Below are positions 1,884 through 46,719 of a stretch of 64,000 nucleotides of DNA, one piece after another. Numbering within the stretch: the stretch's first letter is position 1; every line of letters starts with the position of its first letter. The position numbers and the translations under genes were made by a program. Below the pieces are notes generated by a model, which saw nothing but the letters and a program-made list of their open reading frames with translations, ran no database searches and had not been told where the DNA came from. The stretch is from Sanguibacter gelidistatuariae (lineage in GTDB: Bacteria > Actinomycetota > Actinomycetes > Actinomycetales > Cellulomonadaceae): the NCBI RefSeq assembly GCF_900096585.1, contig NZ_FMYH01000001.1, positions 868,001 to 932,000 on the forward strand, written 5' to 3'.

Positions 1884-2845
1884 AGGTTCATCGTGACATC
1901 ACTCGATGAATTTTGGGTGCCGCGGGCGAGGCCGAGCTGCACGTCGACCGCCACCCGGGTGAATCCGACGGCCGAGTAGGTGTGCACGGCCACCGTGTTG
2001 TCGCCCTCGGTGTACAGCTCGGCGGTCGCCAGGCCCAGCGCGGCGAGCCGGTCCAGGCTCGCCCGGGTGAGGGCGGAGCCCAGTCGCAGGCCGCGGGCGG
2101 ACGGGTCGACGCCGAGGGCGTAGATCTCTCCAGTGCCCCCAGCCTTCCCTGCGTCGGTCGCGACGCCGGAAACCTTGAGCCAGCTGAAGCCGAGGAGCTC
2201 GGCGCCCCGCCAGGCCAGCAGGAAGGACTCGGGGTCGAACCAGGGCTCGTTCATCCGGGTCGCCAGGTCCGCCGCGGTCAGCCGGCCCTGCTCGGGGTGG
2301 CTCGCGAAGGCGCGGGCATTGACCTCGAGCCAGGCGGCGTCGTCGGCCCCGGGGCGGAAGGTGGCCAGGTGGACGCCGCCCGGCAGGTGGAGGGTTTCGG
2401 TGCGGTAGGTCGTGAGGTCGAGGTCCATCTTCCAGAGCTCGCGCACGACCGTGAGGCCGGCGCGGTCGGCGAGGGCGCGGGCGGCCGGCAGGTCGCCGTG
2501 GGCCCACACCTTCAGGGTGCGCCGACCCGCCTGGGCGAGCAGCTGCGCGCGGTCGAGCAGCCCCGAGCCGACGCCGTGGCGGCGGGCGAAGGGGTGGACC
2601 ACGAGCTCGGCGGAGGCGGCACCGGCGACCGCGAGGTCGACCTGCGCATAGCCCGCGAGGTCGTCCGCGGCCCGCACCAACAGGTGGGCCACGCGCGCGG
2701 CCGGGTCCGTGAGCCACAGCAGCGGCTGCTCGGACAGCGGAGCCACCCCGTCGACGTGCTCGGCCGCGCGCACCAGCCGGCGCACGGCACCCGCGTCGGC
2801 CTCGGTCAGGGGGCCGGTCACGACCGCGATCTGGGTGTCATCCAC
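1880..2845 (-). CDS. mshD: Mycothiol synthase
   Basis: Last step of mycothiol synthesis: acetyl-CoA-dependent N-acetylation of Cys-GlcN-Ins. The 321-residue protein has two GNAT folds, as the family does. The N-terminal one carries [15 protein letters not shown]. The C-terminal one carries [14 protein letters not shown] followed by [19 protein letters not shown], the classic end of MshD. The start is GTG, with only a weak upstream purine stretch. The stop overlaps the ppk start. Mycothiol is confined to actinobacteria, so this gene also fixes the phylum. The N-terminal GNAT domain of this family is considered catalytically inert. Confidence 0.93.
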
Positions 2846-2910
2846 TGGGCAATTCCATCACGGTTCGGTGTGTGGTGACGCAGGTCGCACGGAGAGCGGG
2901 GGCGTTCGGC

Positions 2911-2957
2911 TTGGCAGGACCGATTCACCGGGCGTATCTTCATACTGACCGGTCAGT
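2911..2957 (+). promoter_or_regulatory. Promoter and TetR-type operator of the YhgE operon
   Basis: A sigma-70-like promoter is visible: TTGGCA (2911-2916), 18 bases, then TATCTT (2935-2940). Immediately downstream, covering the likely transcription start, lies the perfect 14-base palindrome ACTGACCGGTCAGT (2944-2957). Palindromes of this size and placement are typical TetR-family operators. The operon ends with a TetR gene, so autoregulation is the natural reading. The first start codon is at 2995. Confidence 0.65.
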
Positions 2958-2994
2958 CTAAAAGTGATCGGATGCCACTCCCGGAGGACCACCC

Positions 2995-3795
2995 ATGAAC
3001 CAAACCGTCGCACTGCACGCCAGCGACGCGGTCGAGGCGACGCCGACCACACCGGCGCAGCCCACCCCGACCACCCCAGCACAGCCCGTGCGTTCGCTCG
3101 CGATCAGGGCGCGCGCCCTCACGCTCGAGGGTGCGCGCGGACTCGTCTACGGACCGCTCGACCTCGACGTCCTGGCCGGCGACCTCATCGTGCTTCAGGG
3201 CCCCCAGGGCGCAGGCCGTTCGTCCCTGCTGCTCACCCTCGCCGGCCGGATGGTGCCGAGCGCTGACAGTCGGCTGACCCTGCTGGGCACGGCCCTGCCG
3301 GCCCGCCGCGGGGAGAAGCAGCGCCGCCAGGTCCAGCGCCGCGCCGCGATCGCCGGTTTCACCGGGATCGACGAGCTCGACGACGCCGTGACGATCGCCG
3401 ACACGATCCGTGAGCGGCTCGCCTGGCTGTCCCCGTGGCACCGGCGCACCCCCGCCGTGACCGAGAAGACCTACGCCGCGCTCGCCGACCCCGTGTTCGG
3501 CCCGCGCACCCGCCCCGCCCTCGACTCCATGGTGTGGGACCTCGACGAGGTCGACGCCATGCTGCTGCGCATCATGCTTGCGATGGCGCAGGGACCCGAG
3601 CTGCTTCTCGTCGACGACCTCGACCAGGTGCACGACAGTGCCCGCCGCCAGCTCGTCTGGGACCGTCTCCACGCGATCACCACGACCGGGGTGACCGTGA
3701 TCGGCTCGGTCGCCTCCGCCGGCGAGGTCGGCGCCATGGTCTGGCCCACCGCGCCCACCACGGTGTCCCTGACTACCGGTCCGCTGCCGGTCTGA
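2995..3795 (+). CDS. Degenerate ABC-type ATPase paired with YhgE/Pip protein
   Basis: A 266-residue P-loop protein that precedes a YhgE/Pip-type membrane protein in an operon. The Walker A loop is GPQGAGRSS (residues 69-77), with arginine in place of the usual lysine. Walker B is LLLVDDLD (203-210), with Asp instead of the catalytic Glu. No LSGGQ-type signature is visible; the equivalent stretch reads DLDEVDAMLLRIMLAMA. The first 32 residues are a low-complexity leader with the segment TPTTPAQP duplicated. It may bind nucleotide weakly or act structurally with its membrane partner. The ABC fold is fairly clear; active hydrolysis is doubtful. ATG start, about 38 bases after the palindromic operator. 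Confidence 0.75.
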   Translation: MNQTVALHASDAVEATPTTPAQPTPTTPAQPVRSLAIRARALTLEGARGLVYGPLDLDVLAGDLIVLQGPQGAGRSSLLLTLAGRMVPSADSRLTLLGTALPARRGEKQRRQVQRRAAIAGFTGIDELDDAVTIADTIRERLAWLSPWHRRTPAVTEKTYAALADPVFGPRTRPALDSMVWDLDEVDAMLLRIMLAMAQGPELLLVDDLDQVHDSARRQLVWDRLHAITTTGVTVIGSVASAGEVGAMVWPTAPTTVSLTTGPLPV

Positions 3796-3839: not shown

Positions 3840-6341
3840 ATGTCTTTTACCTCGACCGGTACGGAGCTGCGGCGCTTCCGCCGCGGCCTGCTGCCCAAGC
3901 TCGGGATCGGGGCGATGATCCTCGTCCCGCTGCTCTACGGAGCCCTGTACCTCTGGGCGTTCTGGGACCCTATGGGCAACCTCGACCTGCTCCCGGTCGC
4001 GATCGTCAACTCCGACTCGGGCACCGTGATGGACGACGAGGCGGTCAACGTCGGCGACCAGGTGACCACGAGCCTCGTCGACTCCGGTGATCTCAAGTGG
4101 GCCCGGGTCGACGCCGAGGAGGCAGACCGCGGCGTGCGGGACGGCACCTACTACTTCGCGGTGACCATCCCCGCGGACTTCTCCTCGACCGTGGCGAGCG
4201 CGGCCGGCGACGACCCCAGCGCCGCCCAGATCATGGTCACCTACAACGACGCCAACTCCTTCCTCGCCACGACCCTTGGCGGCAGCGCGATGACGCAGGT
4301 CCAGGGCGCGATCCGGGAGCAGATCGGCGAGCAGGCGGTCGACAAGCTGCTCGTCGGGCTGGGCAGTGCCCGCGACGGGTTCGCCCAGGCCACCGACGGC
4401 TCGCTCACCCTCACGGCGGCGAGCGGACAGCTCTCCGACGGGGCCGCGGCAGTCGCCGACGGCGCCACCTCGGCCGCCGACGGCGCCGCCCTGCTCGCGA
4501 CCGGAACCGGCGCGCTCGCCGACGGTGCGAGCAGCGCCGAGACGGGAGCCGGCCAGCTCGCCGACGGCGCCGGCACGCTCGCCTCCGCCAGCTCCACGCT
4601 GAACACCGGCGCGCAGTCCCTCGCGGGTGGCACGACCAACCTCGCGGCGGGCGCGGGGGCGCTCTCCACAGGGGCCTCGACCGTCTCCACGGGCGCTGAC
4701 GCCCTGGCCACGGGTGCCTCCGGCGCCCTCACCGGCGCCACGACCCTCGCCTCCGGTGCGACCAGCACGCAGGCCGGGCTCGTCCAGCTCGCCTCCGGCG
4801 CACAGACCCTGGCCGGCGGCTTCACCGCCGAGACCGGGCTGGTCGCCGGGATGAACCAGGCCGTGACCGGTGCGCAGACGCTGTCCGCCGGCATCGCCGC
4901 GGCCCAGACCGAGGTCAACGGCCTCGCCGGCCAGGTGCCGACGCTGCGTCAGCTCGTTCAGGCGAACATCGTGGCGCTCCAGGCGCTGCCCACGACCCCC
5001 GAGACCACCGCACTGATCACCACGAACCGGACGGTGCTGACCGCGCTGCCGACCAACGAGAAGCTGGCCGCCTCAGCGGTGGGCTTCCAGACCTTGGTCG
5101 ATGGCGCGAACCAGCTCGCCACGAGCACGACGGACGGTCTGCCGGCCCTCGCGACCGGCCTGACCAAGGCCTCCGCGGGAGCCTCGGCGCTCAACGCCCA
5201 GCTGCAGCCCGGCACCAGCGCGCCCACCGTGCGGGACGGCGTCGACCAGGTTGCGGCCGGGGCGACGAGCCTGCGGGACGGCCTGACCACGCTCAGCTCG
5301 GGCGCCACGTCGCTCGCAGACGGCACGACCGCGCTGACCACCGGCGCGAGCCAGCTGGCGACTGGGGCGACCACCCTGGACACCGGCGCGCGCACCCTCG
5401 CCGGGGGCTCCGCGCAGCTGAGTGCGGGTGCCTCCACCCTGTCCACGGGCGCATCGAGCCTGCTCACCGGGACCCAGCAGCTCGCGGCGGGAACCGCCGC
5501 GGCGGACACCGGCGCACAAGACCTGGCCACCGGGACGGCCACGCTCGCAGACGGCGCCGGGCAGGTCTCTGACGGCTCCGTGGAGCTCACCGCGGGCACC
5601 CAGACCCTCGCCGACGCCCTCGGGTCCGGCGCCGACGCGCTGCCCGACGACGGCCAGGCCCTGCGTGAGCAACGCGCCCAGGTCATCGCCGCACCCGTCA
5701 CGGTCACCAACACCCACATCGCCCAGGCGGAAGGGTTCGGAGAGGGCTTCGCGCCGTTCTTCATCCCGCTCGCCCTCTTCGTGGGAGCCCTCATCACGTG
5801 GCTGCTGCTGCGACCGATCCCCTCCCGGGCGCTGGCCACCCCGGCCTCGGGCTGGCGGACCACGCTCGCCGGCTACCTCCCGGCCCTGGTCATCGGCGTG
5901 GCCCAGGTCGCGGTGATGCTGGCGGTCATCCACTTCGGGGTGGGCCTGCAGATGACGCACGTCGCCGGGACCATCGCGTTCACGATGCTCGTCGCGGCGG
6001 CCTTCCTCGCCGTGCAGCAGGCACTCATCGCGCTGCTCGGCCCGGCCGCGGGCAAGGTCGCGATCCTGGCCCTGCTCATGCTCCAGCTCGCTTCCTCCGG
6101 CGGGACGTACCCGGTCGAGACCACAGCGACGTTCTTCCAGGTGATCCACCCGCTGCTGCCGATGAGCTACGCCGTCGACGGGCTGCGTCAGGTGATCACC
6201 GGAGGGGTCGACGGTCGCCTCGGCGTCGCGATCGCCTACCTCCTGGGCGTCCTGCTACTGTCGCTGGCAGTCAGCGCCTGGCGGGCAGGTCGGATGCGCA
6301 CGTGGACGCTCGAGCGCCTGCACCCGGCGCTGGAGATCTGA
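3840..6341 (+). CDS. YhgE/Pip-family membrane protein
   Basis: Large integral membrane protein (833 residues) of the YhgE/Pip family, related to phage infection protein and distantly to the type VII secretion protein EsaA. One N-terminal membrane segment (IGAMILVPLLYGALYLWAFW) is followed by an extracytoplasmic region of about 600 residues. That region contains dozens of imperfect heptads of the form x-L-A-x-G-A-x, which predict a long helical rod. About five membrane segments of ABC-2 permease type form the C-terminus. The start was set at ATG 3840 because the conserved N-terminus begins there; a GTG directly upstream is also possible. It sits between an ATPase gene and a TetR gene, suggesting an export or envelope function under repression. 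Substrate unknown. Confidence 0.85.
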   Translation: MSFTSTGTELRRFRRGLLPKLGIGAMILVPLLYGALYLWAFWDPMGNLDLLPVAIVNSDSGTVMDDEAVNVGDQVTTSLVDSGDLKWARVDAEEADRGVRDGTYYFAVTIPADFSSTVASAAGDDPSAAQIMVTYNDANSFLATTLGGSAMTQVQGAIREQIGEQAVDKLLVGLGSARDGFAQATDGSLTLTAASGQLSDGAAAVADGATSAADGAALLATGTGALADGASSAETGAGQLADGAGTLASASSTLNTGAQSLAGGTTNLAAGAGALSTGASTVSTGADALATGASGALTGATTLASGATSTQAGLVQLASGAQTLAGGFTAETGLVAGMNQAVTGAQTLSAGIAAAQTEVNGLAGQVPTLRQLVQANIVALQALPTTPETTALITTNRTVLTALPTNEKLAASAVGFQTLVDGANQLATSTTDGLPALATGLTKASAGASALNAQLQPGTSAPTVRDGVDQVAAGATSLRDGLTTLSSGATSLADGTTALTTGASQLATGATTLDTGARTLAGGSAQLSAGASTLSTGASSLLTGTQQLAAGTAAADTGAQDLATGTATLADGAGQVSDGSVELTAGTQTLADALGSGADALPDDGQALREQRAQVIAAPVTVTNTHIAQAEGFGEGFAPFFIPLALFVGALITWLLLRPIPSRALATPASGWRTTLAGYLPALVIGVAQVAVMLAVIHFGVGLQMTHVAGTIAFTMLVAAAFLAVQQALIALLGPAAGKVAILALLMLQLASSGGTYPVETTATFFQVIHPLLPMSYAVDGLRQVITGGVDGRLGVAIAYLLGVLLLSLAVSAWRAGRMRTWTLERLHPALEI

Positions 6342-44125: not shown

Positions 44126-44584
44126 TCACAGGGTCTTCTTGAAGAAGGTTGCGGAGTCTTCGTAGCCCAGCGCCAGGTAGAAGGGACCCGCACGGCGGCT
44201 GGCCAGCGAGATGTAGGCCGCCCCGCTCTCGCGTGCCCACCGTTCCGCCGCGTCCATCAGCATTCCTCCGACGCCGTACCGTCGGTGCTCCGCGGAGACC
44301 ATCACCTCTTCGATCCACGCCAGCGGACCGTTCGCCAGGAACGAGCGGTGCGTGTGGCTCAGGAGATAGCCGACTACAGCCGCGGATGCGGGATCGACGG
44401 CGACGAGGAGCAGTGACAGCGCGCGCCCGTCGGGTGCGCGCTGCTCGCCGACGAGTGCCTCGAAGGTCGCGGTGAACTCCGGCCTCAGGACCGTGAAGGA
44501 CGTGGCGAAGTCCCTGGCCAGTGGCCACACGCCAGCGAGGTCGTCCAGAGCTGCCGGGCGGACGACGACGGTCGAGGTAGTCAT
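44126..44584 (-). CDS. GNAT-family N-acetyltransferase
   Basis: A 152-residue acetyltransferase. The acetyl-CoA loop is VSAEHRRYGVGGMLMDAAERWA, shown as a fragment EHRRYGVGG. C-terminal FYLALGYEDSATFFKKTL is the typical substrate-side end. It begins 21 bases after the stop of the mini-LysA-like gene A and is likely the third gene of that operon. The substrate could be an amine or amino acid related to the neighbouring DAP-type genes, but this is inference from position only. Confidence 0.85.
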   Translation of the reverse strand: MTTSTVVVRPAALDDLAGVWPLARDFATSFTVLRPEFTATFEALVGEQRAPDGRALSLLLVAVDPASAAVVGYLLSHTHRSFLANGPLAWIEEVMVSAEHRRYGVGGMLMDAAERWARESGAAYISLASRRAGPFYLALGYEDSATFFKKTL

Positions 44585-44605
44585 CTGGGAACCGTACCGT
44601 CGCGC

Positions 44606-45100
44606 TCAGCGTTGGATGTCCTCGAGCGCGAAAGGCGCGAGGCACGGGATTGCGAGAAGGTCGCCGCGGTGCAGGTCGTCCGGGAGATGGACCCGGTGGG
44701 ACAGGTTGCCAGAGCGGTCCGGACGCATGCGGTAGCGGCGCACGTGCGCCGAGCTGTGCCGCCCGAGCAGGCGCACCGCGGACAGGACGGGCAGGCAACC
44801 CTCCAGCTCGGCGTCCACCCACACCTCGCGGGACTGGTGATACAGGGAGGGGATCGCGGCGTCGACCCGGACCACGACGATGGTGAGCCGACGGGGCTGC
44901 CCCTGCGCGCCGGAGTGCGCGGCGTCGTTGCTGGTGATGTGGATCATGGGCGTGTCCGAGGCACGAGCGAGATCCGCCATGGACACGCCTGCGACGTGCA
45001 CGTCGCAGGAGGTGAGCACCGTGCCGGCCGGCCACGAGCGGACCTCGACGGTGCGTTGGCCGGCGAGGCGGCTCGAGAGCATCGTATGCAGGAGAGTCAT
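44606..45100 (-). CDS. Mini-LysA-like protein A (PLP barrel absent)
   Basis: A 164-residue protein I cannot assign to a named family. It resembles diaminopimelate decarboxylase with the middle cut out. Residues 23-51 match the LysA N-terminal strand (Trp-Pro, then DVHVAGVSMADLA and DTP). Residues 70-152 match its C-terminal sheet domain, including RLLGRHSS and LPDDLHRGDLLAIP. The catalytic CESGD and GAY-like motifs and the whole PLP barrel are missing. Codon use is that of a normal gene here. It is paralogous to gene B directly upstream, whose stop overlaps its ATG. Probably non-catalytic; perhaps a binding or regulatory partner. Confidence 0.6.
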   Translation of the reverse strand: MTLLHTMLSSRLAGQRTVEVRSWPAGTVLTSCDVHVAGVSMADLARASDTPMIHITSNDAAHSGAQGQPRRLTIVVVRVDAAIPSLYHQSREVWVDAELEGCLPVLSAVRLLGRHSSAHVRRYRMRPDRSGNLSHRVHLPDDLHRGDLLAIPCLAPFALEDIQR

Positions 45101-45615
45101 GCGAAGACCTCTGCCATGATCGGTGACACACCGTGGCGCATCTGAACGTCCTTCAAGGACAGGGATCCTGGGTAGGGGACCGCTAGCAGGTCGCCGGTAT
45201 GGATGTCGGCCGGGATCTGGAGATGGTTGGCGTCCGTGCGTCCCGTCACGATCGCGGGGACCGCGCGTGCAGTCGACGTGCGGCCGATGAGCCGGGCCTC
45301 CGACCACAGGGCGTGGTCCAGGTCGGCGTCGGTCATCAGCTCGATGCGACCTCCTTCGACGATGCGCGCGGACGTCACGGTCGTGACGAGGACGGTCGTG
45401 ACCGTACCGGGTGCGGGGACGCCGCGGGCGCCCGGGCGGACGGCGTCCGCGACGTGCACACACGGTGTGCCGCACAGCGCGACCAGGTGACGCAGCGAGA
45501 TCCCGCCGACGAGGACGTCGTCGATGGTCGGCCGGGTGGCGACCGGCCAGCGGTCCGTCGTGAGCGGATCGGGGATGCTTGCGCGGAGTGTGGGGATGAT
45601 CGAGGTGAGGGTCAT
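45097..45615 (-). CDS. Mini-LysA-like protein B (PLP barrel absent)
   Basis: A 172-residue paralogue of protein A with landmarks at the same positions: Trp23-Pro24, VGGISLRHL from residue 36 and GTP at 49-51. In LysA that stretch reads I-A-G-I/V-x-L, then G-T-P. The second half follows the LysA C-terminal domain in order: APGTVTTVLVTTV, ARLIGRTST, IPADIHTGDLLAVP (about 133-146), and a final SPIMAEVF. The PLP lysine, glycine-rich phosphate site and active-site Cys and Tyr are absent. First gene of a three-gene operon with A and a GNAT gene, divergent from a dapA-type gene. Role unknown. Confidence 0.6.
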   Translation of the reverse strand: MTLTSIIPTLRASIPDPLTTDRWPVATRPTIDDVLVGGISLRHLVALCGTPCVHVADAVRPGARGVPAPGTVTTVLVTTVTSARIVEGGRIELMTDADLDHALWSEARLIGRTSTARAVPAIVTGRTDANHLQIPADIHTGDLLAVPYPGSLSLKDVQMRHGVSPIMAEVFA

Positions 45616-45738
45616 GGTTTTGGTCTACACGGGTGCTGTTCCACGCGCGACGGGCGTTGATGGAACTCAGATATCACGCCGTGCGATCTTGACGGTTTCA
45701 CGACAGCCACGGACGATCGGCTCTCGTAGCGTGGAGGC

Positions 45739-46719
45739 ATGCCTCTTCATGAGAACCCATTCGGTCAGCTTCTCGTCGCCCTTGTCACGCCCTTCACTCC
45801 CGACGGCGACATCGCATGGACCGACCTGGAATGCCACATCGACGAAGTGGTCCACGGTGGTGTCGAGGGGATCGTGGTCGCGGGGACGACCGGGGAGTCG
45901 TCCACGCTCTCCGACCAGGAGAAGATCAGGCTCGTGAAGGTCACGAGCGAGGTCGTGGGGAACCGGGCGACGGTCGTGTTCGGCGGGGGAGCGAGCGACA
46001 CCGCCCACGCGATCGAGCAGTACCGGGTAAGCGCGGCAGCGGGCGCCGACGCCATCATGGTGGCCGCCCCCGCGTACATCCGCCCGAGCCAAGAGGGGAT
46101 CCTCGCGCACGTGCGCGCCATCGCCGACGCGGCGGACCGGCCGGTCATGCTCTACGACGTCCCGGCTCGCACGGGCGTCGGTTTCGACCTCTCGACGCTC
46201 CTCCGGGCGGCAGAGCACCCAGCGATCTGCGCCGTGAAGGACGCCGCATGCGACCTCGCGCGCGCCGCGTACCTCATCGAGGCAAGCGACCTGCTCTACT
46301 TCGCAGGCTCGGACGCCGCAGCGCTGCCCACCCTGGCCATCGATGGCGCAGGCATCGTGAGTGTCGCCGCGAATGTCGCACCGGTGGCGTATCGGCAGCT
46401 TCTCGACGCAGTCGCGGCGGGTGAGCTACGGTCAGCGACCGCCATACACCGCAGGATCGAGCCGCTCGTACGTGCCCTCAATGACTTCGCACCACCTGCG
46501 GTCGCCACCAAGCTGGTGCTCCATGCTCTCGGGCGGATCGACAGCCCACGGGTCCGACTGCCCCTGGTGGGACCCGACCACGCCGCTGCCGAAGGCATCC
46601 ACCGGGAGCTGGACCGCGTCCGGTCCCTTCACGGCGCGAAGACCGCGGGGATCCGGCTCGACCTCGCGGCCGCGACCGGCGGCGCTCTGGCGGCTAGTGG
46701 TCGCGGACCTCGGGCTTAG
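45739..46719 (+). CDS. DapA-family (dihydrodipicolinate synthase-like) aldolase
   Basis: A 326-residue class I lyase of the DHDPS/N-acetylneuraminate lyase family. The Schiff-base lysine is Lys167 (AVKDAACD), the catalytic tyrosine Tyr139 (MLYDVPARTG, with the family Arg), and the Thr-Thr pair Thr50-Thr51 in AGTTGESSTL. These residues agree with true DHDPS, which condenses pyruvate with aspartate semialdehyde toward diaminopimelate and lysine. A C-terminal extension of about 30 residues is atypical. Divergent from the mini-LysA operon, with 123 bases between them. Whether this is the main DapA or a specialised paralogue cannot be told here. The 3' end overlaps the next convergent gene by 26 bases. 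Confidence 0.85.
   Translation: MPLHENPFGQLLVALVTPFTPDGDIAWTDLECHIDEVVHGGVEGIVVAGTTGESSTLSDQEKIRLVKVTSEVVGNRATVVFGGGASDTAHAIEQYRVSAAAGADAIMVAAPAYIRPSQEGILAHVRAIADAADRPVMLYDVPARTGVGFDLSTLLRAAEHPAICAVKDAACDLARAAYLIEASDLLYFAGSDAAALPTLAIDGAGIVSVAANVAPVAYRQLLDAVAAGELRSATAIHRRIEPLVRALNDFAPPAVATKLVLHALGRIDSPRVRLPLVGPDHAAAEGIHRELDRVRSLHGAKTAGIRLDLAAATGGALAASGRGPRA

Follow-up and report, generated by a model that had tools for sequence, protein, structure and literature searches.

The window analysed here is a 64,000-nucleotide stretch of the Sanguibacter gelidistatuariae genome (contig NZ_FMYH01000001.1, positions 868,001 to 932,000). It contains two tandem genes for small proteins, designated types A and B, which resemble diaminopimelate decarboxylase (LysA) at both ends and lack its pyridoxal 5′-phosphate (PLP) barrel. 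A gene of the dihydrodipicolinate synthase (DHDPS) family, DapA2, is transcribed divergently from type A, and the promoter region between them carries a predicted operator for the response regulator KdpE. The features of the locus are listed in Table 1.

Table 1. Features of the type A/type B/DapA2 locus, in window positions.
Feature	Position	Strand	Description
Type A barrel-less LysA protein (P0002, 172 aa)	45097-45615	(-)	MTLT..LP.LR-type N-terminus, WP, C-x3-C-x-H around TP, LysA C-terminal beta strands; barrel absent
Type B barrel-less LysA protein (P0001, 164 aa), paralogue of type A	44606-45100	(-)	Overlaps type A by ATGA; LysA-like ends, barrel absent
DapA2 (P0004, 326 aa), divergent from type A	45739-46719	(+)	DHDPS family, above TIGR00674 cut-off
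Predicted KdpE operator in divergent promoter	45653-45697	(-)	Outer boxes CCGTCAAG (45688-45695) and CCATCAAC (45656-45663), 32 bp apart
-10-like TAGACC	45622-45627	(-)	6 bases before type A ATG; by eye
-10-like TAGCGT	45727-45732	(+)	6 bases before DapA2 ATG; by eye
GNAT acetyltransferase	44126-44584	(-)	21 bases downstream of type B

Types A and B share a 4-base ATGA overlap, and 123 bp separate type A from DapA2. The middle box of the operator is poorly conserved in this genome. The positions of the two -10-like boxes suggest that the type A and DapA2 transcripts may be leaderless. The initial annotation of this DNA placed the landmarks of the two proteins at identical positions, and these were confirmed (WP at 23-24, V36...S40 and TP at 50-51). 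Its view of both genes as maintained, with normal codon use, also holds: the GC content at third codon positions (GC3) is 0.90 for type A and 0.86 for type B, four neighbouring genes range from 0.82 to 0.94, and both types recur in many species. Elsewhere, the genome encodes a single ordinary LysA (G000:C14) and two more DHDPS-family genes: one on contig C11, taken as the housekeeping DapA because the gene for RNase J follows it, and a weaker one on C15.

Relationship of types A and B to LysA

Twelve type A sequences were combined into a profile, which was searched against 177,635 PDB sequences. The best match was the LysA of Mycobacterium tuberculosis (2o0t, E = 3.4e-8), with profile residues 18-52 aligned to LysA residues 9-44 and residues 74-155 to 316-407; the N-terminal segment by itself was weak (9.3 bits). 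Three distinct PDB sequences were matched at E ≤ 1, all of them LysA. The profile-profile comparison proposed in the initial annotation, made with hhalign against a LysA profile, gave E = 7e-11 and covered the C-terminal part only. Searches with single A and B sequences using hmmscan found no Pfam family, PF00278 included, at E ≤ 10 and no NCBIfam family at E ≤ 1. A type A query against 199 relatives returned true type A and B proteins plus weak matches with E-values from 1e-7 to 1e-2; the 20 weak matches retrieved (L012-L031, E from 1e-7 to 4e-4) are all LysA genes, so the likeness to LysA exceeds chance.

Fold models of both proteins, likewise proposed at the outset, were built from four sequences with no LysA in the alignment. 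The mean predicted local distance difference test (pLDDT) scores are modest, 59.8 for type A and 55.5 for type B. LysA (1hkw) was the top match of both models, with Foldseek E-values of 1.9e-4 (A) and 1.8e-4 (B), and VIA-align to LysA gave Z = 11.1 for type A (root-mean-square deviation, rmsd, 4.7; 151 residues aligned) and Z = 9.6 for type B (rmsd 3.4; 140 aligned). A beta-domain fold made of the N-terminal segment and the C-terminal strands is thus supported by the profile and by models of low-to-middling confidence.

About 270 residues of the PLP barrel are missing relative to LysA. Six LysA motifs (the PLP lysine, H.GSQ, EPGR, CE[SA]GD, GGM.DN.R and S.YN) are absent from all 24 sequences (16 type A, 8 type B), whereas each is kept in 16 or 17 of the 17 full-length LysA2 proteins and in 36-38 of the 38 LysA1 proteins, LysA2 being the full-length group described below; L116 and L133, with incomplete frames, were excluded. 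No decarboxylase activity is therefore expected of types A and B. The picture of LysA-like ends without a barrel, drawn from the window's sequence, is upheld by profile, fold matches and motif loss alike. The two substrate loops of the C-terminal domain, CE[SA]GD and GGM.DN.R, are found in 0/24 A and B proteins versus 17/17 LysA2 and 38/38 LysA1, so types A and B are not expected to provide the residues which the C-terminal domain of LysA supplies to its partner. The suggestion that they complete the active site of LysA as free C-terminal domains is rejected on this ground. The description as a free C-terminal-like domain stands in part: that domain is kept, and so is the N-terminal segment of LysA. 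Types A and B almost certainly derive from a LysA.

Distribution, constraint and the DapA2 gene

Sixteen type A and eight type B sequences were found in 18 carrier genomes. Within f1, the window's family and probably Cellulomonadaceae, 10 of 221 genomes have type A, and two more (G282, G290) have type B without type A. A class-wide sample of 394 genomes contained type A in four besides the window's own, all belonging to family f19 (G665, G600, G455, G569), which is probably Microbacteriaceae. Two Herbiconiux carriers came from a named collection; a single-sequence pattern scanned against 84,980 genomes yielded these two loci only. The initial annotation had allowed for an unrelated fold, for homologues confined to one strain and for homologues never near dapA; the predicted folds match LysA best, the 18 carriers are not one strain, and dapA-type genes adjoin type A in part of them.

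The N-terminus MTLT is present in 16/16 type A proteins in the alignment. The motif C.TPC.H occurs in 13/16 type A and 0/8 type B proteins, and a further cysteine (VPC or similar) in 14/16 type A. Fourteen residues are invariant in all 24 sequences (W23, P24, D33, S40, T50, P51, D96, R108, G111, R112, P135, D137, D142 and P147). By the Nei-Gojobori method, four type A pairs gave ratios of nonsynonymous to synonymous substitution (dN/dS) of 0.30-0.54, and two type B pairs gave 0.15 and 0.36; DapA2 falls at 0.21-0.33 and KdpE at 0.10-0.15. Types A and B are constrained, though less than the regulator KdpE. G569 has a broken type A-like frame next to kdpA/kdpB (L097:4678-5115) and an intact type A elsewhere in the genome (L096); the broken frame is perhaps an old kdp-linked copy in decay.

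DapA2 was found in 9 of the 221 f1 genomes (E ≤ 1e-68), all among the 10 with type A (hypergeometric p = 3e-15, kinship ignored). In 9/9 it is divergent from type A, across a gap of 122-126 bp. The window's DapA2 scores 239 bits with TIGR00674 (cut-off 206). The Schiff-base lysine is retained in 9/9 DapA2 proteins, and the Thr-Tyr-Tyr triad is intact in the window's copy; the tyrosine at the position which we take to be Tyr107 in E. coli numbering is replaced in 4/9. The window's DapA2 is likely still an enzyme. Family f19 has a relative of DapA2 (52-54% identity) in 20 genomes of the 394-genome sample, four of which carry type A. It does not stand beside type A in any of the four loci and adjoins RNase J in 5/5 loci checked, and is therefore taken as the housekeeping DapA of that family. 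The most fitting view of DapA2 in f1 is that of a DapA of the f19 housekeeping type which was either acquired or retained.

These data bear on the possibility that types A and B are beta-domain adaptors, which would bind and regulate the DapA2 made from the shared divergent promoter. The exclusive occurrence of DapA2 with type A in f1 (9/9) and the near-constant gap are as expected for an adaptor. However, type A has no adjoining DapA2 in G015, in the two Herbiconiux and in the four f19 genomes, type B occurs without a linked DapA2 in G282 and G290, and among the 20 f19 genomes with the housekeeping relative just four have type A; an adaptor role is accordingly improbable. The same carriers, together with the likeness to the f19 housekeeping DapA, weaken the notion of DapA2 as a universal partner. 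The tie to the DapA family proposed in the initial annotation survives for 9/10 type A genomes of f1, with the divergent arrangement, and is weaker in the f19 and Herbiconiux carriers.

The GNAT gene, assigned by the same annotation to the operon, is present as described and may be co-transcribed with type B in the window's genome. Of 12 loci searched, the 11 others showed no relative at a threshold of E ≤ 1e-3, and the gene was dropped as a module member because it is not conserved across type A/B loci.

Predicted KdpE operators and the kdp neighbourhood

The nine A/DapA2 intergenic regions contain two boxes, [CG]C[AG]T[CG]A[AG][GC], placed 32 bp apart, one about 80 and the other about 48 bases ahead of the type A start; a third box often lies 11 bp before the second. 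A like layout precedes type A of G015, which has no DapA2, of G600 and of H. gentiana (second box degenerate), and also type B of G282 and G290, both without type A. The operator is thus present in 14/18 carriers. A weight matrix was built from these 14 promoters, with no kdp promoter included. The training promoters are related and were selected by their repeats, so that scoring them does not test the matrix; neither the kdp promoters nor the published site contributed to it.

In 10/10 kdp regions the best matrix site precedes the first kdp gene by 82-159 bp, on its strand. These sites score 7.8-38.9, positions elsewhere in the same regions reach at most 3.7, and none of 284,096 background positions scores ≥7.8. 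The background was taken without L132, L106 and L107, which carry LysA2-like genes; their best sites score 11.6 in L132 (about 190 bp before a LysA2-like fragment), 6.5 in L107 (upstream of LysA2) and 1.2 in L106. Genes were called with a simple codon-based script, which overlooked at least one kdp start: the second-best site of G015 (33.7) precedes an overlooked kdpF/kdpA start. In L144 the first kdp start was put at 4849 by hand, the called first gene starting at 4935. The regions upstream of the window genome's canonical lysA and dapA score -12.9 and -17.0. One exact match to the repeat pattern in this genome lies 167 bp before its first kdp gene.

The KdpE site mapped upstream of kdp in M. 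smegmatis is a 22-bp pair of 11-bp direct repeats, CCGTnAnG/CCnTCAnG, according to the portion of the report available (PMC5401905). As given there, it matches the matrix in register with the second and third boxes, at a score of 16.3, which 0/20,000 shuffles reach. After removal of the window's own site from the matrix, the window's site is still the top match of the 64 kb (14.1; next 9.6). It is quite probable from these matches that the promoter in the window is under KdpE control.

Two further sites were noted, the genes next to them being named by eye. In L119, a KdpE-like site at 3331(-) (score 18.3) lies about 100 bp ahead of a gene (2020-3234) for a probable membrane transporter, a possible further target of KdpE. 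In L122, a site at 4653(+) (16.6) lies about 130 bp before a universal stress protein-like gene (4782-5315), close to LysA2.

Type A or B lies about 0.1-5.4 kb from kdpE in 8/18 carriers (L036, L037, L039, L040, L041, L091, L092 and L094), with several other genes between them in L037. The module of G015 has the start of the kdp operon at about 5.5 kb and kdpD at 11 kb, and that of G090 has kdpD at about 11 kb. KdpD is encoded in 18/18 carriers; within f1 it is found in 134/221 genomes, namely 12/12 carriers versus 122/209 others (p = 0.002, kinship ignored). In the window's genome kdpE follows kdpD. In a comparison of L038 and L148, the neighbours of the G090 module, by eye sugar kinase-like, aldolase-like and universal stress protein-like, resemble those beside the kdp operon of the window's genome; the two may therefore have been adjacent at an earlier time in the window's lineage too.

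Proximity to kdpE would suit types A and B as ligand sensors, responding to lysine, diaminopimelate or, through the C-x3-C-x-H motif of type A, a metal, and feeding back on KdpD/KdpE. The cysteines of most type A proteins are compatible with such a function, but C.TPC.H is missing from all eight type B proteins, the second cysteine motif from the window's type A, and the LysA ligand-binding loops of the domain from all 24. We consider a sensor role unlikely.

The type A profile also found a full-length LysA near kdpE/kdpD in G532 (L099:3559-4854), whose start, TLAEILPSL, is like that of type A. This protein and its relatives constitute LysA2, for which 18 loci were examined (L132 and L133 not among them). 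Seven of the 18 LysA2 loci (L099, L108, L109, L111, L117, L118 and L123) have a kdp gene at most about 2.5 kb away, and in G610 LysA2 is found between kdpE and kdpA; LysA1 lies near kdp in 0/6 loci with called neighbours. With unit starts hand-picked from the gene calls, the top matrix match of the locus is upstream of the LysA2 unit in 10/18 loci, and upstream of LysA1 in none of the five control loci. The signature MTL..(I/L)(I/L)P(S/T)(L/M) occurs in 16/16 type A, 0/8 type B, 4/17 LysA2 and 0/38 LysA1 proteins, and RLxGR in 24/24 type A and B, 13/17 LysA2 and 0/38 LysA1; both were picked after the sequences had been inspected.

The best tree (120 columns) places types A and B on the LysA2 side of the LysA1 branch with support of 96/98, and type B forms a single clade (99/95). 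It includes 16 of the 38 LysA1 rows, lacks the LysA2 of L117 (segment not extracted) and has three further rows without the N-terminal segment. A tree with A and B joined only to the four MTL-type LysA2 gave p = 0.254 in the approximately unbiased test (p-AU). Types A and B probably descend from LysA2 in particular.

In some loci, probably of Streptomyces, a small gene (112-118 aa, with a 'GPLYVPVRPG'-like stretch) directly precedes LysA2 on the same strand (L108:8023-8370, L118:5859-6197, L119:5834-6190 and L121:8144-8482). The family that includes g90 is probably Streptomycetaceae. A two-gene pair, encoding an 'M(D/E)LT.YV..L' protein and a presumably DUF4097-like one, stands beside type A in G074 (L033:7444-8882) and beside LysA2 in G450 (L108:8685-10137).

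Given this ancestry, types A and B might also be functionless LysA2 remnants decaying at an old promoter. Their patchy spread, the broken frame in G569, dN/dS values of up to 0.5 and an operator that is weak at four promoters are in keeping with decay. Yet the N-terminal signature is present in every type A protein, the 14 invariant residues run through both types, the operator precedes type B in both genomes that lack type A, and type B is a single clade with dN/dS of 0.15 and 0.36; decay is the least probable of the alternatives considered.

Proposed role and comparison with known systems

The preferred reading is a predicted KdpE-regulated potassium-limitation module, in which dead LysA beta-domains partner the lysine pathway (probability about 0.53). 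Three features point to potassium limitation as the signal: the operator of KdpE type, the proximity to kdp in part of the loci, and the existence of a full-length LysA2; in M. smegmatis, KdpDE responds to this condition, as stated in the accessible part of PMC5401905. In such a module, a LysA2 would have lost its PLP barrel and kept a beta-domain devoid of catalytic residues. Under potassium shortage, KdpE would turn on kdp, types A and B and, if present, DapA2 from the single divergent promoter. DapA2 would raise the flux into the diaminopimelate/lysine pathway, and types A and B, as dead partner subunits (pseudoenzymes), would bind the housekeeping LysA at its barrel, altering the share of diaminopimelate converted to lysine. 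This pairing is expected by analogy with antizyme inhibitor, a dead relative of ornithine decarboxylase, and is put forward as a doubtful element of the model. The computations themselves show the homology, the absence of the barrel and of the catalytic motifs, the operator in common and the co-occurrence; descent from LysA2 in particular, KdpE binding, the LysA pairing and the metabolic purpose are inferred.

More broadly, Actinobacteria might tie the diaminopimelate/lysine pathway to the Kdp response, with KdpE driving LysA2 or a free regulatory beta-domain, sometimes with a second DapA, and lysine replacing potassium; this generalization is tentative. B. subtilis without added potassium grew best with ornithine, citrulline, arginine, lysine or glutamate, according to the excerpt of PMC5573677 consulted. 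Such partial replacement of potassium by lysine makes a KdpE-driven LysA2 fit a role of lysine as a cation. For venezuelae, PMC10117811 concerns both development and growth with NaCl or KCl at 0.5 M.

Several observations weigh against the potassium-limitation module. The kdp genes of the window's genome are on a different contig from the module, and their site has a low score (13.7). The exact repeat pattern shows no enrichment in this genome (4 matches versus 8 for the reversed control). The promoters used for the matrix were chosen for showing repeats, and the other four type A promoters are weak (G665, 6.4; G455, -9.0; G569, -0.1; H. daphne, -1.0), although in three of them (6.4, -0.1 and -1.0) the type A promoter is the top match of its locus. 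Just 9/18 LysA2 units have an upstream site reaching 7.8, and the f19 housekeeping dapA has the top match of the locus upstream in 1/5 loci, with a score of 4.8. Placement of types A and B beside LysA1 is not rejected (p-AU 0.36), type A (dN/dS ≤0.54) is under laxer constraint than KdpE, and a linked DapA2 is missing from the nine carriers named above.

If this reading is true, a family of relatives of fold-type III decarboxylases has outlived the loss of the catalytic barrel, its ancestor being hinted at in several ways, and a free beta-domain excised from a PLP enzyme would represent a new kind of regulatory protein. Potassium supply would be linked to lysine metabolism through a predicted branch of the KdpE regulon that acts on lysine-pathway genes at potassium shortage, for which no report was found. 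The literature was searched in PMC open-licence papers (not subscription ones). Among the matches listed, nothing linked LysA to Kdp or dealt with a LysA that is truncated, barrel-less or a pseudoenzyme; nor was LysA or DapA under KdpE described. The 'lysA' words in the matched text of PMC4221891 and PMC12210973 are 'lysate', not the gene, and PMC12542777 was the sole match listed with both 'diaminopimelate decarboxylase' and 'kdpFABC' in the text returned.

Compared with known systems, the operator before types A and B is like the 11-bp direct repeats upstream of kdp in M. smegmatis; that site was mapped for kdpFABC, and the part of PMC5401905 available names no lysine-pathway target. DapA2 is above the TIGR00674 cut-off for DapA and about 54% like the f19 housekeeping DapA, but it is a second copy, divergent from type A, and 4/9 lack the tyrosine at the Tyr107 position. 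With the LysA of M. tuberculosis (1HKV/1HKW/2O0T) and Corynebacterium glutamicum (5X7M/5X7N), types A and B share the N-terminal segment and the C-terminal strands; unlike LysA, they are without the barrel and the six catalytic motifs. Non-catalytic paralogues of decarboxylases include trypanosome prozyme and antizyme inhibitor, a paralogue of ornithine decarboxylase with a regulatory role. Antizyme inhibitor (3BTN/4ZGZ) is full-length (394-residue chain), whereas types A and B have no barrel; 3BTN is among their fold matches (Z = 7.6 and 8.0), and in pseudoenzymes of this kind, as in types A and B, the catalytic residues are lost in a maintained paralogue.

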